NCBI RefSeq assembly: GCF_017347585.1
Contig: NZ_AP024480.1
Coordinates: 1,262,001-1,326,000 of the forward strand
DNA length: 64,000 bases
Origin: Caldicellulosiruptor diazotrophicus
GTDB lineage: Bacteria > Bacillota > Thermoanaerobacteria > Caldicellulosiruptorales > Caldicellulosiruptoraceae
Direction of reading: 5' to 3'
The notes beneath the pieces were generated by a model, which was not told where the DNA came from, made no database searches, and saw only the letters and a program-made list of their open reading frames with translations. Position numbers and translations under genes: made by a program. How positions within the stretch are numbered: position 1 is the first letter of the stretch; the number at the start of each line of letters is the position of its first letter. Below, in pieces: positions 2,273-10,621 of this stretch.

Positions 2273-4012
2273 TTAATACAATGGCCTTTTCTTATAGTGT
2301 GTATGCAAAATATGATGAGCTTTTTCGCTATTTGGATGACCTAAGAACTCTTCATATAATCTTTTTACAGTAGGATTTTCATGAGACTTTCTTATTGGCA
2401 AAGACCTATCTTCATCATATATTGCACTTGATCTGAGTTTTGCAACATCTACTTTTTCTTTTATCTTTGCAGGGACAATTGGCTGTCCACCACCCATTAT
2501 GCAACCACCGGGACATGCCATAATCTCTATAAAATGATACTCTTTTTCTCGGTTTTTGACCATCTCAAGAAGTTTTTTAGCATTTGCCAGGCCATGAGCA
2601 ACGGCTGCTTTAATCTTCATACTACCGACATCAATCTCAGCTTCTCTTATTCCCTCGAGACCGCGAACCTGTGTAATTTCAACATTTTCAAGGGTTTTTC
2701 CTGTCAGCACTTCATATACAGTTCGCAGTGCTGCTTCCATTACACCGCCTGTTGTTCCAAATATAACACCGGCACCTGTTGCATCTCCCATTGGATCGTC
2801 AAAATGACTATCTGGCAGGTTCACAAAGTCAATTCCCGCTTCTTTTATCATTCTTGCAAGTTCTCTTGTTGTTAAAACTGCATCAACATCTGGATATCCA
2901 CTTGCCGCAAGTTCTTCCCTTTGAGCTTCAAATTTCTTAGCAGTACATGGCATAACTGACACAACAAACATGTTTGCAGGGTCAATTCCCATTTTCTGTG
3001 CAAAATATGTCTTTAAAATTGCACCAAACATCTCGTGTGGAGATTTGCAGGTTGATAAATTGTCTAAAAATTCAGGAAAATAGTGTTCACAGAATTTAAT
3101 CCAACCTGGTGAACATGAAGTTATCAAAGGCAACTTACCACCATTTTTAATTCTGTTGATAAGCTCTGTACCTTCCTCCATAATGGTAAGGTCTGCACCT
3201 GTGTCTGTATCAAATACCTTATTAAAGCCAAGCATTTTAAGAGCAGTTACCATTTTGCCTGTAACTCTTGTGCCTATTGGAAGTCCAAACTCTTCACCAA
3301 GAGCAACTCTAACAGCTGGAGCTGTCTGAACAACTACATATTTGTTCTTATCTGCAAGTGCTCTCCATACAATATCTGTTGAATCTTTCTCTCTTAAAGC
3401 TCCAACTGGACAAACCTGAATACATTGACCACACATTGTGCATGCAACTTCATTGAGACTTCTGTCAAATGCAGTAGATATAACTGTTCTGAAACCTCTA
3501 TAATTTGCGTTTATAACTCCGACTTCTTGAACATTTCTACATACATTTATACATCTTTTACAAAGTATACATTTATTAGGATCTCTTACAACAGAAGGTG
3601 AAAAATCATCAAGAGGTCTTCTTATATTTTCACCTTCATATCTAATCTGTTTAACATTTAAATCTTCAGCAAGTTTTTGAAGTTCACAGTTCCCGCTCCT
3701 GACACATGTCAAGCAGCTTCTGTCATGGTTTGACAATATAAGCTCAAGATTGACCTTTCTTGCTCTTCTTACCCTTTCACTGTTTGTGATAACTTCCATG
3801 CCTTCCGACACAGGATAAACACAAGCAGCCTGCAAGCTTCTTGCCCCTTTTACTTCAACAACGCACATTCTGCAAGCACCAATTTCATTTATACCTTTAA
3901 GATAACACAGGGTTGGAATCTCAACTCCTGCTTCGCGTGCAGCTTGGAGTACTGTATAATCTTTTGGCACTTGAATTTTCTTACCATCTATTGTGATATT
4001 CACCATTTCCAT
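2273..4012 (-). CDS. hydA: [FeFe]-hydrogenase catalytic subunit HydA (NAD-linked, trimeric type)
   Basis: The 579 residues have the full modular layout: an N-terminal [2Fe-2S] domain (C36, C47, C50, C64), a His-Cys3 [4Fe-4S] site (H96, C100, C103, C109), two ferredoxin clusters (C148/151/154/158 and C191/194/197/201), then the H-cluster domain. The H-cluster loops are TSCSPGW (298-304), MPCTAKKFE (C356) and ACPGGCIMGGGQP (C500, C504). With HydB and HydC it should form the cytoplasmic complex that couples hydrogen formation to NADH and ferredoxin. The L1 loop has one cysteine followed by serine where the classical clostridial enzyme has two adjacent cysteines (see findings). It is the last gene of the operon, 19 bp after hydB, before a terminator. 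Electron bifurcation itself is inferred from family membership. Confidence 0.96.
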   Translation of the reverse strand: MEMVNITIDGKKIQVPKDYTVLQAAREAGVEIPTLCYLKGINEIGACRMCVVEVKGARSLQAACVYPVSEGMEVITNSERVRRARKVNLELILSNHDRSCLTCVRSGNCELQKLAEDLNVKQIRYEGENIRRPLDDFSPSVVRDPNKCILCKRCINVCRNVQEVGVINANYRGFRTVISTAFDRSLNEVACTMCGQCIQVCPVGALREKDSTDIVWRALADKNKYVVVQTAPAVRVALGEEFGLPIGTRVTGKMVTALKMLGFNKVFDTDTGADLTIMEEGTELINRIKNGGKLPLITSCSPGWIKFCEHYFPEFLDNLSTCKSPHEMFGAILKTYFAQKMGIDPANMFVVSVMPCTAKKFEAQREELAASGYPDVDAVLTTRELARMIKEAGIDFVNLPDSHFDDPMGDATGAGVIFGTTGGVMEAALRTVYEVLTGKTLENVEITQVRGLEGIREAEIDVGSMKIKAAVAHGLANAKKLLEMVKNREKEYHFIEIMACPGGCIMGGGQPIVPAKIKEKVDVAKLRSSAIYDEDRSLPIRKSHENPTVKRLYEEFLGHPNSEKAHHILHTHYKKRPLY

Positions 4013-5845: not shown

Positions 5846-6235
5846 TTAGTTATTTGCCTCTTTATTTTCTTCATAGCCAATTGTGTATTCATATACTGGT
5901 TTTCCGTTGACCAAATGCTCTGCAACAACCTTTAAAACTTTTTCAGGAGTCATTTTAACATATGTGACCTTTTCTTTATTTGGTTCATAAACCTCTACAA
6001 TTGGTTCATACTTGCAAAGTCCAATACAGCCAGTCTGCACAACTGTAACGTTTCTTAAATTTCTTTTTTGAATTTCTTCAACAAACTTGAGCATAACAGG
6101 TCTTGCACCCGCTGCTATTCCACATGTTGCCATACCAACAACAACTCTTATCCCTTCACCGTGTTGTTTTCTGAACTCAAGCTCTTCTAACGCCTTTTTC
6201 CTTATTTCTTCAAGCTCCTGAATAGACTTAATCAT
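5846..6235 (-). CDS. Small thioredoxin-like [2Fe-2S] ferredoxin domain protein of the hyd operon
   Basis: A 129-residue protein whose residues about 29-85 match the thioredoxin-like ferredoxin domain at the HydB N-terminus. Three cysteines align without gaps to HydB (C38, C70, C74 against C16, C48, C52). The position of the first HydB ligand, C11, is valine (V33) here. From memory the GMxTCGIAAGA form is a family trait, so this is probably not decay. Its ATG overlaps the stop of the preceding ATPase gene by 4 bases, and hydB follows 17 bp later. It may be an accessory electron carrier or assembly partner of the HydABC complex; that role is inferred from position. Confidence 0.85.
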   Translation of the reverse strand: MIKSIQELEEIRKKALEELEFRKQHGEGIRVVVGMATCGIAAGARPVMLKFVEEIQKRNLRNVTVVQTGCIGLCKYEPIVEVYEPNKEKVTYVKMTPEKVLKVVAEHLVNGKPVYEYTIGYEENKEANN

Positions 6236-6789
6236 TTATTATTTACACCTCCGGTTAAATTTGATAAACCACTTTCTAACTGGCTTCGAATAAAGTCAAG
6301 TACGCTCAGAGTATTCAAAGGAATATCATCGCCCAAAACCTCTCGGATGCTTCTTGTATCAAAAGTAAATTCACTTTGATTGTTTCTGTAACAAAATATA
6401 AAATCTACATCTGGTGCTCCACTTATAAGTGCAAGTAGGGTCTCTGCAATATTTCCAAGAGGAGGTCTGTCTATATGAGAATGTTTCATCTTAAGCACTA
6501 TTTTAGTGCCTCTTTCGAGCCTTTCAACAGTGAAGCTTCCTTCACAGTCCATTGCAAGTTGTTTTGCTAAAGAAAGACCAAGTCCTACTTTTCGTGTTTT
6601 TCTTGTGGTGTAAAAAGGGTCTGTCACTATATCAATAACTTCCTTAGGAATACCCCTTCCATTATCCTCTATTGTAATGGTAAAAAGGTCCTCTTCCAAA
6701 TCTTCGACAATCTCAATCTTAACTAAACTTGCACCCGCTTCTATTGAATTTTGCACAAGATCAAGGATATAAAGCGAAAGATCGTTCAA
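6232..6789 (-). CDS. ATP-binding protein with histidine-kinase-type ATPase fold, no kinase domain
   Basis: The 185 residues begin with a GHKL ATPase domain: N-box (LVQNSIEAGA, with N14), G1 box (EDNGRGIP, about 41-48), G2 box (VGLGLSLAKQ, about 68-77) and a terminal RGTKIV strand. There is no phospho-acceptor histidine or dimerisation helix. The C-terminal 80 residues are unassigned. Proteins of this kind often occur in hydrogenase operons and resemble anti-sigma or sensor ATPases. The start is a TTG (6787-6789) after AAGGTGAT. It lies between hydC and the ferredoxin gene. The function is unknown; a regulatory or assembly role is inferred. Confidence 0.8.
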   Translation of the reverse strand: MNDLSLYILDLVQNSIEAGASLVKIEIVEDLEEDLFTITIEDNGRGIPKEVIDIVTDPFYTTRKTRKVGLGLSLAKQLAMDCEGSFTVERLERGTKIVLKMKHSHIDRPPLGNIAETLLALISGAPDVDFIFCYRNNQSEFTFDTRSIREVLGDDIPLNTLSVLDFIRSQLESGLSNLTGGVNNK

Positions 6790-6831: not shown

Positions 6832-7314
6832 TTAATATCTTGACAAAATATCTGTAACATCATCCTCACTCAACTTTCCATACACAGTATTGTCAATTAC
6901 AACAACCGGCGCCAGTCCACAAGCTCCCAAACATCTGGTTGCTTCAATTGAAAATTTTCCATCTTCTGTTGTTTCCCCTACGTCAATCTTTAAAAGTTCT
7001 TTTAACTTATCCAAAATCTTGTCTGCACCTTTAACGTAACAAGCTGTACCCATGCACACACTTATCTTATGGTCCCCTGTTGGCTTTAAGGTAAACCTTG
7101 TATAAAATGTCGCAACACCGTAAACCTCAGCCATTGGTATATTGAGCCCTTCTGCTATTCTTTTTTGAACTTCATATGGCAAATATCCAAAAAGTTCCTG
7201 TGCCTCATGCAAAACTGGAATTAAAGCCCCTTTCCTTGATTTATTTTTTTCAATAATTTCATCAAGTTTTTTGAAATTCTCTTCTGTTAGATTCTTACCC
7301 TGGCAACAAGACAT
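6832..7314 (-). CDS. hydC: Hydrogenase subunit HydC (NuoE-like [2Fe-2S] protein)
   Basis: The 160-residue protein has the NuoE signature: the helical N-terminal part with ALIPVLHEAQELFGYLP and GVATFYTRF, then a [2Fe-2S] site formed by C87, C92, C128 and C132 (CMGTAC and CLGAC). It passes electrons between HydB and HydA. The reading frame opens further upstream, but I place the start at the ATG at 7314 because GAAGGGGG lies just before it and the extra 25 residues would overlap the operator region. It is the first gene of the hydCBA unit, downstream of two Rex-like sites. Confidence 0.93.
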   Translation of the reverse strand: MSCCQGKNLTEENFKKLDEIIEKNKSRKGALIPVLHEAQELFGYLPYEVQKRIAEGLNIPMAEVYGVATFYTRFTLKPTGDHKISVCMGTACYVKGADKILDKLKELLKIDVGETTEDGKFSIEATRCLGACGLAPVVVIDNTVYGKLSEDDVTDILSRY

Positions 7315-7334: not shown

Positions 7335-7352
7335 TTGTTAGAAATTTAACAT
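7335..7352. promoter_or_regulatory. Rex-like operator, hydC-proximal
   Basis: The 18-bp sequence TTGTTAGAAATTTAACAT matches the Rex consensus TTGTTAA-N4-TTAACAA at 12 of 14 defined positions. It ends 20 bases upstream of the hydC start codon, where a bound repressor would block transcription. Rex represses fermentation and hydrogenase genes in many Firmicutes and releases DNA when NADH is high. No rex gene is in the window. Confidence 0.72.
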
Positions 7353-7367
7353 ACTGAGTTAAAACTA

Positions 7368-7385
7368 CTGTTAATATTGTAACAT
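7368..7385. promoter_or_regulatory. Rex-like operator, hydC-distal
   Basis: CTGTTAATATTGTAACAT matches the Rex consensus at 11 of 14 defined positions. Its centre is 33 bp from the centre of the proximal site, about three helical turns, so two dimers would sit on the same face of the DNA. On the minus strand the site contains TACAAT, a possible -10 hexamer, but I see no convincing -35 partner. Confidence 0.62.
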
Positions 7386-7422: not shown

Positions 7423-8124
7423 TTAATTGAAAAATATTGTATACAGTATATCACTTTCAATAAAAAATTCTCTCTCATTTATCTCCCATAGATGATGAGC
7501 GTCTGATGAATATAAGTAAACATAATTTCTGTTTTGAGGAAGAAAATTAGTAAATTCTATTTCAGAGGTTTTAGAAACCTCTAAAAAAGTCAAATCAGTT
7601 AGATCCTCAGGCAAAAAGCCAAGCCTCCCAATTACACCAAAAGACTGTCTGTTTATGTGTGCAGGTACAAAAACCATATTATAGAATTTAGATATTTCGT
7701 AAACTTGTTTTAAACTTAGTAAAAGTGGTTGAAGAAGAAGTTTTTCATAGCTTCCAATTACATTGTCCTGAATATCAACAGTATACTGATTACCGTAAAT
7801 ATCTTCTCTGAGCTTTATAAAAGGTAGATGCTTTTCAATAATGTCCTGAAATTCTCTTATAATACGAACATCTTTATGCTTAAAATACAAAAGAACATGT
7901 ATCTCCTCTTCTGTTTCTATCTCAACCCCAGGTATAAACAAGATGTCAAGCAAGGTTGCCACTTCTAAAAAACTTTCAAGGTTTAAGGTGCAGTTATGGT
8001 CTGTCACAGCTATAACATCTAATCCTTTTAATTTAGCCATATTTATTATATTATGCGGGGTCATATCATTGTCTGCACAAGGAGAAAGCAACGAATGAAT
8101 ATGAAGGTCATAATAAAGTTTCAT
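7423..8124 (-). CDS. PHP-domain protein of the hydrogenase sensor cluster
   Basis: The 233 residues form a stand-alone PHP (polymerase and histidinol phosphatase) metal-binding domain. The metal motifs are DLHIHSLLSPC (D6, H8, H10), VTDHN (about 39-43), FVPAHINR in the middle and SSDAHHL near the end. Such proteins are phosphoesterases acting on small phosphates or nucleotides. Its start overlaps the DRTGG gene by 4 bases, and it is the last gene before the hydC promoter region. Members of this type recur beside putative sensory hydrogenases; the substrate is unknown. Confidence 0.82.
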   Translation of the reverse strand: MKLYYDLHIHSLLSPCADNDMTPHNIINMAKLKGLDVIAVTDHNCTLNLESFLEVATLLDILFIPGVEIETEEEIHVLLYFKHKDVRIIREFQDIIEKHLPFIKLREDIYGNQYTVDIQDNVIGSYEKLLLQPLLLSLKQVYEISKFYNMVFVPAHINRQSFGVIGRLGFLPEDLTDLTFLEVSKTSEIEFTNFLPQNRNYVYLYSSDAHHLWEINEREFFIESDILYTIFFN

Positions 8125-8459
8125 AATTTATCTTCCTTTTCTTTAAGAATCAACAGCCTTGCTGTTTCAAAATGTGAAAGTTCTGTTGTAAAAATTGGTA
8201 TTTGCTGCTCTATTGATCTTTTAAGCATATCAGAATCGGGTTTTACTCCTTCTGTTAAGATTATTGCTTTTACTTCTCTGAGAGTTGCTATAGCAACCAC
8301 ATTTACATTGTTTTGAATGGTTATCCATATACTGTTATCCTTGATATGTGATATTGCAAAACTTAACACATCTCCAATGTATACATTTTCATACCGTTCA
8401 TTCTTTACAACCCCATTTGCTAATTCAAAATACTTGCCTAAATCCAAAATACTTGGCAC
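8121..8459 (-). CDS. DRTGG-domain protein (second copy)
   Basis: A 112-residue protein with the fold and length of the DRTGG domain, named after an N-terminal segment of phosphotransacetylase and related proteins. Recognisable features are the central hydrophobic strands (VVAIATLREVKAIILTEG) and the downstream KPDSDMLKRSIEQQIPIFTT segment. It shares its first base with the sensory hydrogenase stop and overlaps the PHP gene. A related 117-residue copy lies at 10248-10601. The domain is thought to be regulatory, but no activity is established. Confidence 0.72.
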   Translation of the reverse strand: MPSILDLGKYFELANGVVKNERYENVYIGDVLSFAISHIKDNSIWITIQNNVNVVAIATLREVKAIILTEGVKPDSDMLKRSIEQQIPIFTTELSHFETARLLILKEKEDKL

Positions 8460-9790
8460 TATTCATCATTCCTTTCAAGTGATGGTGGAAGTTTATTCGA
8501 AAGTTCAACCATTTTGTTTGCAAGCTCTTTTATGCTTTCCCTAAGAATAAAAATACAATCTGTATCATTAGCAAAACCACGTACTATATCCTCTGCAAGA
8601 GTTTTACATGTAGGTGAACCACAAGCCCCACAATCCAAACCAGGTAACATACTAAGGATATTATTTAACTTTTCAAACTTTTCCATAGCTCTCTCAATAT
8701 CAGAGTCAAGTTCAAGGACAGGGTTTGTTTCTAATTCTTTTTCAAAAAGAATATCCTCAAGCTTAAGAGAAAAACTATTAATAATCTCCTCCGTCCACCA
8801 TGAAAAACTCTCTTCTTTGTCTTTTAATTTGGAAGACAATCTTTTAATACGATTTTTAGCAACATACGGATTTTCCACTGTAAGCGGTCCTCCGACACAC
8901 CCACCGCTGCATGCAAGACCTTCAAAATATACAATATCTTTGAGTCTGCCATTTTCAATCTCTTCTAAAACTTTTACTACATTGTGAATACCATCTACAT
9001 TTACATACTCTTCAATTTCCAACGCTAAGCTTTCACCGCCTGATGCTGCCCAACCAATACCCTTACCTGAGGCAATTGAAAGAAGCTTTACATCTTTTAT
9101 TTCTCTTAGCTTACTTCTTACAAGTCCATAAACATCTTTTATCGCTATTACTCCATCCACGTATGAGCGTTTAAAACCAAGGGGACTGTTTACATATGTC
9201 ATCTTTGCTGCACATGGAGAGATAAAAAAAACCCCTATTTTACCTTCTTCAATTCTCTTTTCTCTTTGTATCTTTTTCTTAGCAATATATGCAGCAACTT
9301 CCATAGGCGAGGCAATTGGCAGGATATTCTCTATAAGGTCTGGAAATTTTGTCTGGATAAGCCTGACAACTGCCGGGCATGCAGAGGAAATTATTGGTTT
9401 TTTGCTTTTATTATTGAGAATAAACTGTTTTGTAAAGTGGGTTACTATCTCGGCTGCTTTTGCAACCTCAAATACATCATCAAACCCTATGTCAAGCAAA
9501 ACATACAGAAGCTTATTCACATCGTCAACCTCAAACTGAGCATAAAAAGAAGGAGCTGGCAGTGCAACTTTATATTGAAATTTATTGATTTCCTCTAAAC
9601 TATCAGTAACAGCATATTTTGCATGGTATGGACATGTCCTTATGCACTCTCCACAGTCTATACACCTCTGATCAATAATCCTTGCTTTTGAGTTTCGCAC
9701 CCTAATGGCTTCAGTAGGACATCTTTTAATACAGTTTGTACACCCTTTACATTTCTCTTTGTCAAGCATAATAGAATGTAAATTTTTCAT
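8459..9790 (-). CDS. Putative sensory [FeFe]-hydrogenase (HydS-like)
   Basis: Layout over 443 residues: two ferredoxin [4Fe-4S] motifs (C14/17/20/24 and C43/46/49/53), an H-cluster domain with loops SSACPAVV (C138), SPCAAKMTYVNSP (C193) and EGLACSGGCVGG (C294, C298), and a C-terminal RnfB-type Fe-S domain (C387, C390, C395, C412). All four H-cluster cysteine ligands are present. The residue before the first ligand is alanine instead of the proton-relay cysteine, and the third loop reads GGPL instead of GGGQP. Both traits are known from putative sensory (group C/D) hydrogenases, which turn over slowly. There is no PAS or kinase domain. It is flanked by DRTGG, ATPase and PHP genes, which supports a signalling role. 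Confidence 0.87.
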   Translation of the reverse strand: MKNLHSIMLDKEKCKGCTNCIKRCPTEAIRVRNSKARIIDQRCIDCGECIRTCPYHAKYAVTDSLEEINKFQYKVALPAPSFYAQFEVDDVNKLLYVLLDIGFDDVFEVAKAAEIVTHFTKQFILNNKSKKPIISSACPAVVRLIQTKFPDLIENILPIASPMEVAAYIAKKKIQREKRIEEGKIGVFFISPCAAKMTYVNSPLGFKRSYVDGVIAIKDVYGLVRSKLREIKDVKLLSIASGKGIGWAASGGESLALEIEEYVNVDGIHNVVKVLEEIENGRLKDIVYFEGLACSGGCVGGPLTVENPYVAKNRIKRLSSKLKDKEESFSWWTEEIINSFSLKLEDILFEKELETNPVLELDSDIERAMEKFEKLNNILSMLPGLDCGACGSPTCKTLAEDIVRGFANDTDCIFILRESIKELANKMVELSNKLPPSLERNDE

Positions 9791-9822
9791 TTATAGTTCA
9801 CTTCCCCACATTTCAAAGATGG

Positions 9823-10242
9823 TCATTTATTGTAAATAACCATATATACCCTTGTACCTTTGCCTTTTTGTGAATCAATCTCAAAATAATCTGAGTACTT
9901 TTTCATGTTTGGAAGTCCCATCCCGGCTCCAAATCCTAAGTTTCTTATCTCTTCCGGAGCTGTGGAATATCCTTCTTTCATAGCAAGCTCAATGTTTTCA
10001 ATTCCAGGTCCACTGTCTTGAGCTATTATTTCAATCTTGTCCTTTGAAATTATGGCTTTTAAAATACCACCAATTGAATGTATAACAATATTCATCTCTG
10101 CTTCATAAGAGACAATTGCAACTTTTTTAAGTATCTCTGGTTTTACTCCAAGTTTTTTTAAAGTCTCTTTAATTTTAGAAGAAGCTTCACCTGCTAATAT
10201 AAAATTGCCCGGTTCAATCTCAAATTCCAGATCAATAAGCAT
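9823..10242 (-). CDS. Anti-sigma-factor-like ATPase (RsbW/SpoIIAB type)
   Basis: The 139 residues form a GHKL ATPase domain like that of serine-kinase anti-sigma factors: N-box region YEAEMNIVIHS, G1 box AQDSGPGI, G2 box GFGAGMGLPNMKK and the closing KGTRVYMVIY strand. I use the ATG at 10242; a GTG at 10257 that overlaps the preceding gene is an alternative. It lies between the first DRTGG gene and the HydS-like gene. In related clusters such ATPases are proposed to pass on the hydrogenase signal, but no partner sigma factor or antagonist is visible here. Confidence 0.8.
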   Translation of the reverse strand: MLIDLEFEIEPGNFILAGEASSKIKETLKKLGVKPEILKKVAIVSYEAEMNIVIHSIGGILKAIISKDKIEIIAQDSGPGIENIELAMKEGYSTAPEEIRNLGFGAGMGLPNMKKYSDYFEIDSQKGKGTRVYMVIYNK

Positions 10243-10247
10243 CTTTT

Positions 10248-10601
10248 TCAGCAGCACCTTTCTTTCCCAAGTCCATTTTCATAAAGTATTCCGCATGCTT
10301 GAAACATAGGATAATCCGTTCCGAGAAGAGCTATACACTTTTCTTTCGCAAGTTTCAACATTTCTTCAGATGGTTGCTTACCTCGAACAATTATCACAGC
10401 TTTTATATCCATCATCTCTGCAGTTCTTATCACTTGAGGATTTACAAGACCCGTCAATAAAATCACCTTCTCTTTTACAAATGCCAAAACGTCGCTCATA
10501 AGATCAGAACCACATGCATTTAAAAATTCTTCATTATATAGCTCTTCAGGCTCGAAATAAACCGTGCAATTTAAAAGCTCTTTAATTTTTGTTAATTTCA
10601 T
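10248..10601 (-). CDS. DRTGG-domain protein (first copy)
   Basis: This 117-residue DRTGG-type protein is similar in length and layout to the copy at 8121-8459. It has an N-terminal part with VYFEPEELYNEEF, a conserved LMSDVLAFVKEK segment, hydrophobic strands (VIRTAEMMDIKAVIIVRG) and the terminal LAKEKCIALLGTDYPMF region. Cysteines occur at the C-terminus (ERCC). It heads the putative sensor block and starts 20 bp after tlyA, too close for an obvious promoter of its own. The biochemical role is unknown. Confidence 0.75.
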   Translation of the reverse strand: MKLTKIKELLNCTVYFEPEELYNEEFLNACGSDLMSDVLAFVKEKVILLTGLVNPQVIRTAEMMDIKAVIIVRGKQPSEEMLKLAKEKCIALLGTDYPMFQACGILYENGLGKERCC

Positions 10602-10621
10602 AACAAATAACCTCCAAATTT

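Follow-up and report, generated by a model that had tools for sequence, protein, structure and literature searches.

A conserved gene module around a putative sensory [FeFe] hydrogenase beside the bifurcating hydrogenase operon of Caldicellulosiruptor diazotrophicus

Introduction

Group D (M2e) [FeFe] hydrogenases have been termed sensory in published surveys because their genes lie near kinases and a bifurcating hydrogenase (PMC3561251, PMC8163306, PMC3608648). TamHydS of Thermoanaerobacter mathranii, a member of this group with two N-terminal and one C-terminal [4Fe-4S] clusters and no PAS domain, turns over H2 (PMC8163306, PMC13104023), and it alone among group D proteins has been measured to have low turnover and an H2-induced structural change. 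H2 alters its secondary structure independently of the redox state of the C-terminal cluster, and as this cluster is not reduced by H2 (PMC13104023), the case for simple redox signalling is weakened. In other Thermoanaerobacter strains the group D gene lies two genes before a five-gene hyd operon; Tmath_0862 is such a group D gene and the hyd genes end at Tmath_0869 (PMC3608648). Neither DRTGG nor PHP partners are discussed in the TamHydS literature (PMC8163306, PMC13104023).

The group C (M2f) proteins TmHydS, Ruminococcus albus HydS and HfsB (PMC10055695, PMC11837493) share a sensory-type active site, a C-terminal [4Fe-4S] cluster and a neighbouring second hydrogenase with the protein described here but differ in having a PAS domain. 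The SpoIIAB/RsbW modules combine a small GHKL ATPase having an N-box Glu/Asn pair with small partners, a phosphoesterase and an upstream input, using STAS proteins, PP2C and a sigma factor. The DRTGG fold binds or transmits nucleotide signals in solved proteins. In the CBS-DRTGG region of family II pyrophosphatase (3l31), the CBS and DRTGG parts sense nucleotides jointly. Finally, in the Caldicellulosiruptor Rex regulon, as described in the main text of PMC6391272 and PMC8579813, a Rex box precedes the five-gene hyd operon, as it does at the present locus.

Organization of the locus

The window analysed is the whole 64 kb stretch of the C. diazotrophicus chromosome (NZ_AP024480.1, positions 1,262,001 to 1,326,000). 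Five open reading frames were confirmed on its minus strand at 7423–10601, next to the hyd operon:

10248–10601, minus strand: DRTGG1, protein with a single DRTGG domain, encoded by the first module gene
9823–10257, minus strand: SAB, SpoIIAB/RsbW-like GHKL ATPase, putative switch kinase
8459–9790, minus strand: HydS, [FeFe] hydrogenase of group D (M2e) without a PAS domain, putatively the H2/redox input
8121–8459, minus strand: DRTGG2, second DRTGG protein
7423–8124, minus strand: PHP, PHP-family metallophosphoesterase with the predicted metal ligands present
6832–7314, minus strand: hydC, first of the five hyd operon genes (2Fe-2S_thioredx, 2.3e-54)
6232–6789, minus strand: HK2, the second ATPase, a stand-alone HATPase encoded within the hyd operon and counted as the sixth module member
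5846–6235, minus strand: thioredoxin-like [2Fe-2S] protein, an associated gene that is fused to HK2 in locus L043
4032–5828, minus strand: hydB of the bifurcating hydrogenase, putative regulated target, neighbourhood conserved
2273–4012, minus strand: hydA of the bifurcating hydrogenase, putative regulated target (PF02906, E = 3.6e-106)

The initial annotation described the five genes as lying head to tail with small overlaps. This is true of three of the four junctions (spacings of -10, +32, -1 and -4 nt in gene order), the ATPase and HydS being separated by 32 nt. The start of hydC was placed at the ATG at 7314, which has a ribosome binding site, rather than at the 7389 given by the ORF tool.

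The group D hydrogenase

HydS gave Pfam matches to Fe_hyd_lg_C (127.9 bits) and the C-terminal FeS domain (45.4 bits), both above cut-off, as well as two Fer4 matches. Its H-cluster site is complete, sites for three accessory [4Fe-4S] clusters are present, and it carries group D substitutions. The H-cluster ligands are all present, as had been noted (Cys138, Cys193, Cys294 and Cys298), and the full set of 16 Fe-S and H-cluster cysteines is kept in 113 of 113 relatives. The reported alanine in place of the relay cysteine was also borne out; it is Ala137, it matches the TamHydS class, and cysteine occurs at this position in none of the 113 relatives. CpI residues Met353 and Met497 are replaced by Ser191 and Leu292, loop 3 reads LACSGGCVGGPL, and the group A proton-path residues are all missing.

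Every residue compared is identical in TamHydS, including the Met353-to-Ser and Met497-to-Leu changes, the absent relay cysteine (C299) and, in shared numbering, C20, R30, R32, K35, R42 and K58. The Asp-Cys, Glu-Asp and Asp-Cys pairs of the TamHydS-type C-terminal site are likewise kept (D386-C387, E400-D401 and D411-C412). HydS gave no Pfam match to the C-terminal PAS domain that characterises group C. With four H-cluster cysteines, two N-terminal and one C-terminal [4Fe-4S] sites and the group D residues (R30, R32, K58 and the Ser/Leu changes), HydS is by its residues a group D (M2e) hydrogenase of the TamHydS type, and it probably senses hydrogen. The alanine fits this class but is an unreliable sign of the slow sensor that it had been taken to indicate, as TmHydS also carries this alanine yet exceeds CpI C299A in activity. 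That a sensory hydrogenase lies beside a bifurcating one is supported here and had been proposed already in the surveys cited above.

Partner proteins

SAB matched Pfam HATPase_c_2 at 30.6 bits, above cut-off, and SpoIIAB (5e-11) and RsbW (7e-4) in the PDB, while its score against NCBIfam spIIAB (58.8 bits) lies under the equivalog cut-off of 135. The GHKL fold is accompanied by an N-box ExxxN (E52 and N56), DxGxG and GxGxG, all invariant among relatives, and by these features SAB belongs to the SpoIIAB/RsbW kinase superfamily. The Pfam scan of eight window genes found no STAS antagonist or sigma factor, and the set has no PP2C phosphatase; the partners here are DRTGG and PHP proteins. Nor did Pfam find a HisKA domain with a response regulator in the window. 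The statement of the initial annotation that no classical kinase or regulator is present misleads and is wrong in part: SAB is placed in a kinase superfamily and keeps the residues that bind ATP and the N-box Glu and Asn without variation, and a second ATPase, HK2 (HATPase_c, 67 bits), is found in the hyd operon.

DRTGG2 (112 aa) matched Pfam DRTGG at 38.1 bits, above cut-off, and DRTGG1 at 25.0 bits against a cut-off of 25.2. An AF2 model of DRTGG1 (two-sequence input, pLDDT 79.5, conserved loop 35–43 uncertain) matched the DRTGG structures 2ioj (E = 3e-6), 3l31 and 1ko7, so that both proteins are assigned to the family by Pfam or by the solved fold. Unlike in 3l31, they stand alone here, and CBS domains are carried by the ATPase in some relatives. 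Two residues are invariant among the relatives of each protein, S36 and T50 in DRTGG1 and S33 and T47 in DRTGG2. To regard S36/T50 as phosphoacceptors is a guess. By eye, the N-domain of HprK from this genome showed no counterpart of these residues, but invariance can be structural, and the DRTGG fold is not known as a kinase substrate.

PHP scored 36.6 bits in Pfam, above cut-off, and matched EndoQ in the PDB (9e-17). Its His/Glu/Asp metal ligands (H8, H10, H43, E68, H76, H156, D208 and H210) are 98–100% conserved, from which phosphoesterase activity is predicted; the group C hfs operon likewise has a serine-phosphatase-like partner, and the ATPase, DRTGG and PHP partners distinguish the present locus from group C.

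Conservation, co-occurrence and gene fusions

Following separation of HydA from HydS by HMMs with competitive assignment, 105 group D HydS loci had enough flanking sequence for neighbourhood analysis. At least three of the four partner genes occur in fixed order at 97 of them; SAB adjoins HydS at 101, and DRTGG2, PHP and DRTGG1 are found at 98, 89 and 82, respectively. DRTGG1 or PHP is missing from some HydS loci, in L150 together with SAB. Co-occurrence across genomes, which had been suggested as a check, was clear: 107 of 299 genomes have both group D HydS and DRTGG1, 13 HydS alone, 9 DRTGG1 alone and 170 neither (Fisher p = 1.5e-54, uncorrected for shared ancestry). Both the cysteine conservation of HydS and this co-occurrence are far beyond chance. 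The single-protein search of genome contigs yielded one locus, L033 of Sedimentibacter.

Neighbouring genes of the module are also found fused. Pfam confirmed DRTGG1-SAB in L052 (further cases come from HMM and length), SAB-HydS in L132 and, in L047 and L054, a HydS that continues at its C-terminus into DRTGG2. PHP is fused to HK2 in six loci (Pfam-confirmed in L098 and L128), and HK2 directly follows PHP in 21 loci and is retained in modules without hyd genes. As these fusions occur in other lineages, HK2 belongs to the set; the five genes proposed initially are real, and the boundary around them was drawn too narrowly. Conservation, fusions and the sensor exchange described below strongly support a single functional unit.

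The module adjoins Rnf genes in L033, L126, L130 and L143, and there are modules without nearby hyd or rnf genes (e.g., L081, L104, L166 and L168). In the f77 genomes, and only in these, SAB-HydS lies beside a histidine kinase and an OmpR-type response regulator, apart from the otherwise intact module. In the literature searched, no description of the conserved DRTGG/ATPase/PHP set was found, and biochemical or genetic tests on module genes concern HydS relatives only. An AraC regulator is reported as the other neighbour of TamHydS; DRTGG2 fills that slot in three related genomes (f3), which leads us to suspect a misannotation. The possibility that the f3 genomes carry TamHydS itself was rejected, as residue offsets differ by 1–2 and the proteins are thus relatives only.

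Apparent exchange of the sensor

In L166, L168 and L172 HydS is absent and the gene order is DRTGG1, CBS-SAB, DRTGG2, PHP, HK2. The CBS-bearing SABs fall at three or more points among the HydS-type SABs in the SAB tree. Given the absence of HydS and the presence of CBS domains on SAB in several genomes, HydS looks like one interchangeable input to the module.

Rex boxes and linkage to rex

Three perfect Rex cores are present in the 64 kb, against 0.15 expected, and these are the only such boxes:

7336–7351: proximal Rex box of hydC, TGTTAN6TAACA, kept in 5 of 5 genus members
7369–7384: distal Rex box of hydC, 33 bp from the proximal box and overlapping a possible extended -10 (TGTTACAAT)
10590–10605: Rex box over the DRTGG1 start codon, in 4 of 5 genus members

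A whole-genome scan allowing three mismatches was uninformative (759 matches, 806 in the reversed control). The proximal box corresponds in position to the C. bescii site, 39 bp from the ATG, at which Rex binding was reported by EMSA in the main text of PMC6391272 and PMC8579813; neither main text mentions the box at the DRTGG1 start codon or an overlap of rex with DRTGG1. Since the promoter carries a Rex operator and the genome encodes rex, the locus is assigned to the Rex regulon, binding having been shown for the C. bescii homologue. Transcription start site evidence indicates that Rex represses the bifurcating hydrogenase. Hydrogenase transcripts of C. saccharolyticus rise at high pH2, and rex deletion in C. 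bescii reportedly changes hydC expression little (log2 -0.13 to -0.38).

A full-length rex gene is linked to the module in 24 loci from at least 11 families, most loci being without one. It directly precedes DRTGG1 in six families, with a 4-nt overlap in nine loci of two families. Rex-box enrichment outside the genus is modest (9–15% of loci, 2% in controls). Replacement of DRTGG1 by rex in eight loci was considered and rejected, as DRTGG1 proved from Pfam and the length of the ORFs to be fused to SAB in these loci. The two hydC boxes, the DRTGG1 box and the rex linkage contradict in part the earlier view that a classical regulator is lacking; this linkage could simply place module and hydrogenase in one shared regulon.

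Proposed mechanism and alternatives

We propose a cytoplasmic switch in which a slow group D hydrogenase is the input and enzymes of ferredoxin, NADH and H2 metabolism receive the output, a reading to which we give a probability of about 0.5. H2, or the redox poise of H2, protons and ferredoxin, would induce a conformational change in the ferredoxin-like and C-terminal cluster region of HydS, and HydS, in a complex with SAB, would thereby alter SAB activity; that HydS is the input to SAB is quite likely. SAB would act on the DRTGG proteins by partner switching and/or by phosphorylation of the invariant Ser/Thr, the latter being a tentative proposal. PHP, paired with HK2, would act as the phosphoesterase that resets the switch. 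The output would tune enzymes linking ferredoxin, NADH and H2, namely the bifurcating hydrogenase here and Rnf in some relatives. As the last step we favour an effect exerted via the NADH-sensing repressor Rex or jointly with it, so that one operon would integrate H2 and NADH. A direct DRTGG-to-Rex link is doubtful; it is inferred, as are H2 sensing and phosphotransfer.

The alternative that survives best, though we consider it unlikely, is that the module acts post-translationally and leaves transcription to Rex alone. It would directly gate how the bifurcating hydrogenase or the Rnf complex works or is assembled, and HK2 and the [2Fe-2S] protein would serve as docking parts. Rex already explains hyd transcription, no DNA-binding domain occurs in the module, HK2 and the [2Fe-2S] protein sit within the hyd operon and are tied to the module by the PHP-HK2 and HK2-[2Fe-2S] fusions, and the four Rnf-adjoining loci agree; it fits poorly with the modules that have no hyd or rnf genes nearby and with the two-component system adjoining SAB-HydS in f77.

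HydS might instead be a slow metabolic enzyme, a low-potential electron valve, with assembly or repair factors as partners, in line with its complete cluster ligands, the H2 turnover of TamHydS and a C-terminal cluster that H2 does not reduce. We regard this as improbable given the CBS domains that substitute for HydS on the same ATPase, the invariant ATPase and phosphoesterase sites of the partners and the lack of group A proton-path residues, Cys137 among them. A mere Rex-controlled redox operon, in which SAB, DRTGG and PHP proteins perform unrelated nucleotide chores, would account for the Rex boxes that precede each of the two units and for the nucleotide-handling members of the PHP and DRTGG families, but is very improbable in view of the neighbour fusions, the persistence of the module without hyd genes and the near one-to-one relation of DRTGG1 and HydS across genomes.

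Implications

The "new type of relay" of ATPase, DRTGG and PHP proteins in the initial annotation is plausible as a hypothesis. Its widest form is speculative and rather unlikely as a whole: a relay class of many Bacillota, with a SpoIIAB-like kinase, DRTGG in place of STAS proteins, PHP, swappable HydS or CBS inputs and DRTGG acting on Rex, in which H2, adenylate and NADH signals would meet on hydrogenase and Rnf operons. Although a sensory role has been ascribed to the group D enzymes for more than 10 years, they had no known signal path. The conserved partners and their fusions, the CBS domains that stand in for HydS and the link to Rex narrow this question to a few binding and deletion tests, which are feasible in non-pathogenic, genetically tractable thermophiles that serve to produce hydrogen and ethanol.

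Gene Order and Partners

The module genes and neighboring hydrogenase genes reported in the initial annotation were confirmed, within a nearly complete 2.6-Mb genome, in the following order of transcription:

minus strand, ahead of DRTGG1: tlyA
10248-10601, minus strand: DRTGG1, first DRTGG-domain gene
9823-10257, minus strand: SAB, SpoIIAB-like ATPase
8459-9790, minus strand: HydS, [FeFe] hydrogenase
8121-8459, minus strand: DRTGG2, second DRTGG-domain gene
7423-8124, minus strand: PHP
minus strand, 108 nt past PHP: hydC
6232-6789, minus strand: HK2, a second ATPase
minus strand, after HK2: thioredoxin-like [2Fe-2S] gene, then hydB, then hydA

Gene order is the same in Caldicellulosiruptor bescii, with HydS at Athe_1292, a five-gene hyd operon beginning with Athe_1295, and Athe_1297-1299 as the hydrogenase trio. 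This spacing equals that of the Bacillota genomes tabulated in PMC3561251, in which five locus numbers lead from the group D enzyme to the adjoining hyd trio.

The active sites predicted for the partners of HydS are well conserved. In all SAB sequences examined, both glycine boxes were kept, as were Glu52 and Asn56 of the N-box, and the closest solved structures were SpoIIAB (5e-11) and RsbW (7e-4). SAB scored far under the equivalog cut-off for anti-sigma-F, and the scanned genes included neither a STAS nor a sigma partner; it is therefore treated as putatively anti-sigma-F-like in its working and was not filed in that family. PHP most resembles PHP endonuclease Q and phosphoesterases, and its metal ligands are conserved at 98-100%. 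The predicted structure of DRTGG1 matches the HPr kinase N-domain as well as DRTGG domains of known structure. Each DRTGG protein has an invariant Ser and Thr (Ser36 and Thr50 in DRTGG1, Ser33 and Thr47 in DRTGG2), which makes these residues candidates for phosphorylation.

The HydS Hydrogenase

A domain scan of HydS identified an N-terminal 2x[4Fe-4S] region, the H-domain and, at the C-terminus, an FeS domain. It detected no PAS domain, and group C, which is defined by that domain, was rejected. As had been noted initially, all H-cluster ligands are intact (Cys138, Cys193, Cys294, Cys298) and alanine (Ala137) replaces the relay cysteine. Met353 and Met497 are replaced by Ser191 and Leu292, the two substitutions also seen in TamHydS, the group D enzyme of Thermoanaerobacter mathranii, and the remaining group D residues named in PMC13104023 are likewise present. 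None of the 16 cysteines varies in 113 relatives, and position 137, mostly Ala (56%) or Ser (37%), is never Cys. By its sequence, HydS is assigned to group D (M2e). This sensor class is already known; its nearness to kinases and proposed sensory role were published previously (PMC3561251 among other sources). Because the C-terminal cluster gives no response to H2 (PMC13104023), conformational signaling would be likelier than signaling by the redox state of that cluster.

Distribution and Extent of the Module

When 299 genomes from the phylum were searched, a clear group D set emerged, and 121 loci were read around the module genes. The order DRTGG1-SAB-HydS-DRTGG2-PHP recurs across these loci, which come from dozens of families. 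In the 105 loci with enough flank, HydS had SAB next to it in 101, DRTGG2 in 98, PHP in 89 and DRTGG1 in 82, the last two counts being lower bounds because fusions were scored as missing. Bifurcating hyd genes lay nearby in 77. The co-occurrence analysis proposed initially bore out the association: at least three of the four partners were found in 97 of the 105 loci, and HydS and DRTGG1 occurred together in 107 genomes (HydS only, 13; DRTGG1 only, nine; neither, 170; raw counts, ignoring kinship). The module is real and widespread.

Fusions into a single reading frame were seen by domain scan for DRTGG1-SAB (locus L052), SAB-HydS (L132), HydS-DRTGG2 (L047, L054), PHP-HK2 (L098, L128) and CBS-SAB (L130, L051). 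Fusions beyond these, one of them HK2-[2Fe-2S] in L043, were called from HMM assignment together with ORF length. DRTGG2-PHP is the one neighbor link of the chain for which no fusion was found; these genes usually overlap (median -4 nt). The five-gene boundary first drawn proved too narrow: HK2 directly follows PHP in 21 loci, some without hyd genes, and this, together with the PHP-HK2 fusions, makes it part of the module.

Several loci depart from this arrangement. In L173 (6165-7927), DRTGG1 is intact behind rex and hydC-hydA continue, with mere fragments of HydS and PHP, an apparent decay of the sensor. L150 (2891-4180) has a group D HydS without SAB, DRTGG or PHP, adjoining a CitMHS/ArsB-type transporter gene. 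In ten loci (L062, L064, L070, L072 and similar) HK2 and the [2Fe-2S] gene are separated by an inserted gene of the RseC/MucC family, which matches PF04246 in L064. In f3 genomes (L046, L049, L050), DRTGG2 follows HydS where the TamHydS paper gives an AraC regulator; the AraC call is probably an annotation error in the T. mathranii entry.

Probable Exchange of Inputs

Sites with DRTGG1 and no group D HydS were read as a separate set. In L166, L168 and L172 the order is DRTGG1, a SAB with two CBS domains, DRTGG2, PHP and HK2, followed in L172 by hyd genes; group D HydS was not found in these genomes, that of L172 being only 85% complete. In the SAB-domain tree, CBS-bearing proteins branch off at three or more separate points within the HydS-type SABs (local supports of 0.84-0.92 where L130/L167/L168 and L172 attach; the position of L166 is not settled). 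In family f77, SAB-HydS stands separately, with a complete histidine kinase and a regulator of the OmpR type as its neighbors, and DRTGG1, DRTGG2, PHP and HK2 stay as one group, preceded by rex in three of four genomes. The simplest reading of these gene arrangements is that the module would be a switch core whose inputs can be swapped, with HydS as one such input. Such exchange is the best evidence here that HydS may be a sensor rather than a metabolic enzyme.

Two other hydrogenase fusions lie upstream of group D modules. The one shortly upstream in L134 (10556-12778, minus strand) is 741 aa long and combines three parts: an [FeFe] hydrogenase domain with C-terminal FeS, an AAA+ domain of the sigma-54 activator type, and a Fis-type HTH. 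It is possibly a one-protein hydrogen-responsive transcription activator. Immediately upstream in L054 (11646-13979, minus strand) is a 778-aa [FeFe] hydrogenase-PAS-HisKA-HATPase fusion.

Association With Rex

The Rex core TGTTAN6TAACA occurs exactly three times in the 64 kb (0.15 expected; reached in 0 of 100 shuffles). Two copies, spaced by 33 bp, lie upstream of hydC, and the third lies across the DRTGG1 start codon. The proximal hydC box is present in all five genus members and the DRTGG1 box in four of the five. In C. bescii, the site picked for EMSA lies 39 bp from the ATG of the hydC-equivalent gene; the Rex study reports a Kd of 10-50 nM at conserved sites of the regulon, and in its model the FeFe hydrogenase is repressed by Rex, a repression that mapping of transcription start sites supports (PMC6391272, PMC8579813). 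The rise of hydrogenase transcripts under high H2 pressure in C. saccharolyticus has also been attributed to Rex. Across all loci, Rex-like sites were found upstream of 9% of modules (uncorrected Fisher p = 0.002), 15% of hydC (2e-5), 2% of controls and 0 of 102 hydB genes, about half of the hits stemming from the window's own genus. In 24 loci, drawn from at least 11 families, a full-length rex lies nearby and in the same orientation; six families have it directly before DRTGG1, and in nine loci the two genes overlap by 4 nt. These boxes and linked genes tie a classical regulator to the module, where none had been recognized initially. Either the module acts on Rex or the two are merely co-regulated.

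Possible Outputs and Neighboring Systems

In searchable open-access papers no description was found of a conserved device of these six genes that has exchangeable inputs and is linked to Rex; part of it may be known from other sources.

In some families the region just past the module holds rex and, after it, NapC-like/multihaem cytochrome genes, as in L100 (5165-6649; identified by Pfam), L119 (11276-12757) and L169 (3385-4302; both by sequence similarity).

Output through transcription with Rex is weakly preferred; direct gating of enzymes would also fit and is ranked slightly behind. The varying neighbors of the module are systems that handle electrons: most loci have the bifurcating hydrogenase, L100 has a multihaem cytochrome, and L033, L126, L130 and L143 have, from gene order and sequence, an Rnf operon directly after the module in place of hyd genes. 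Such neighbors fit a device that would tune enzymes linking ferredoxin, NADH and H2.
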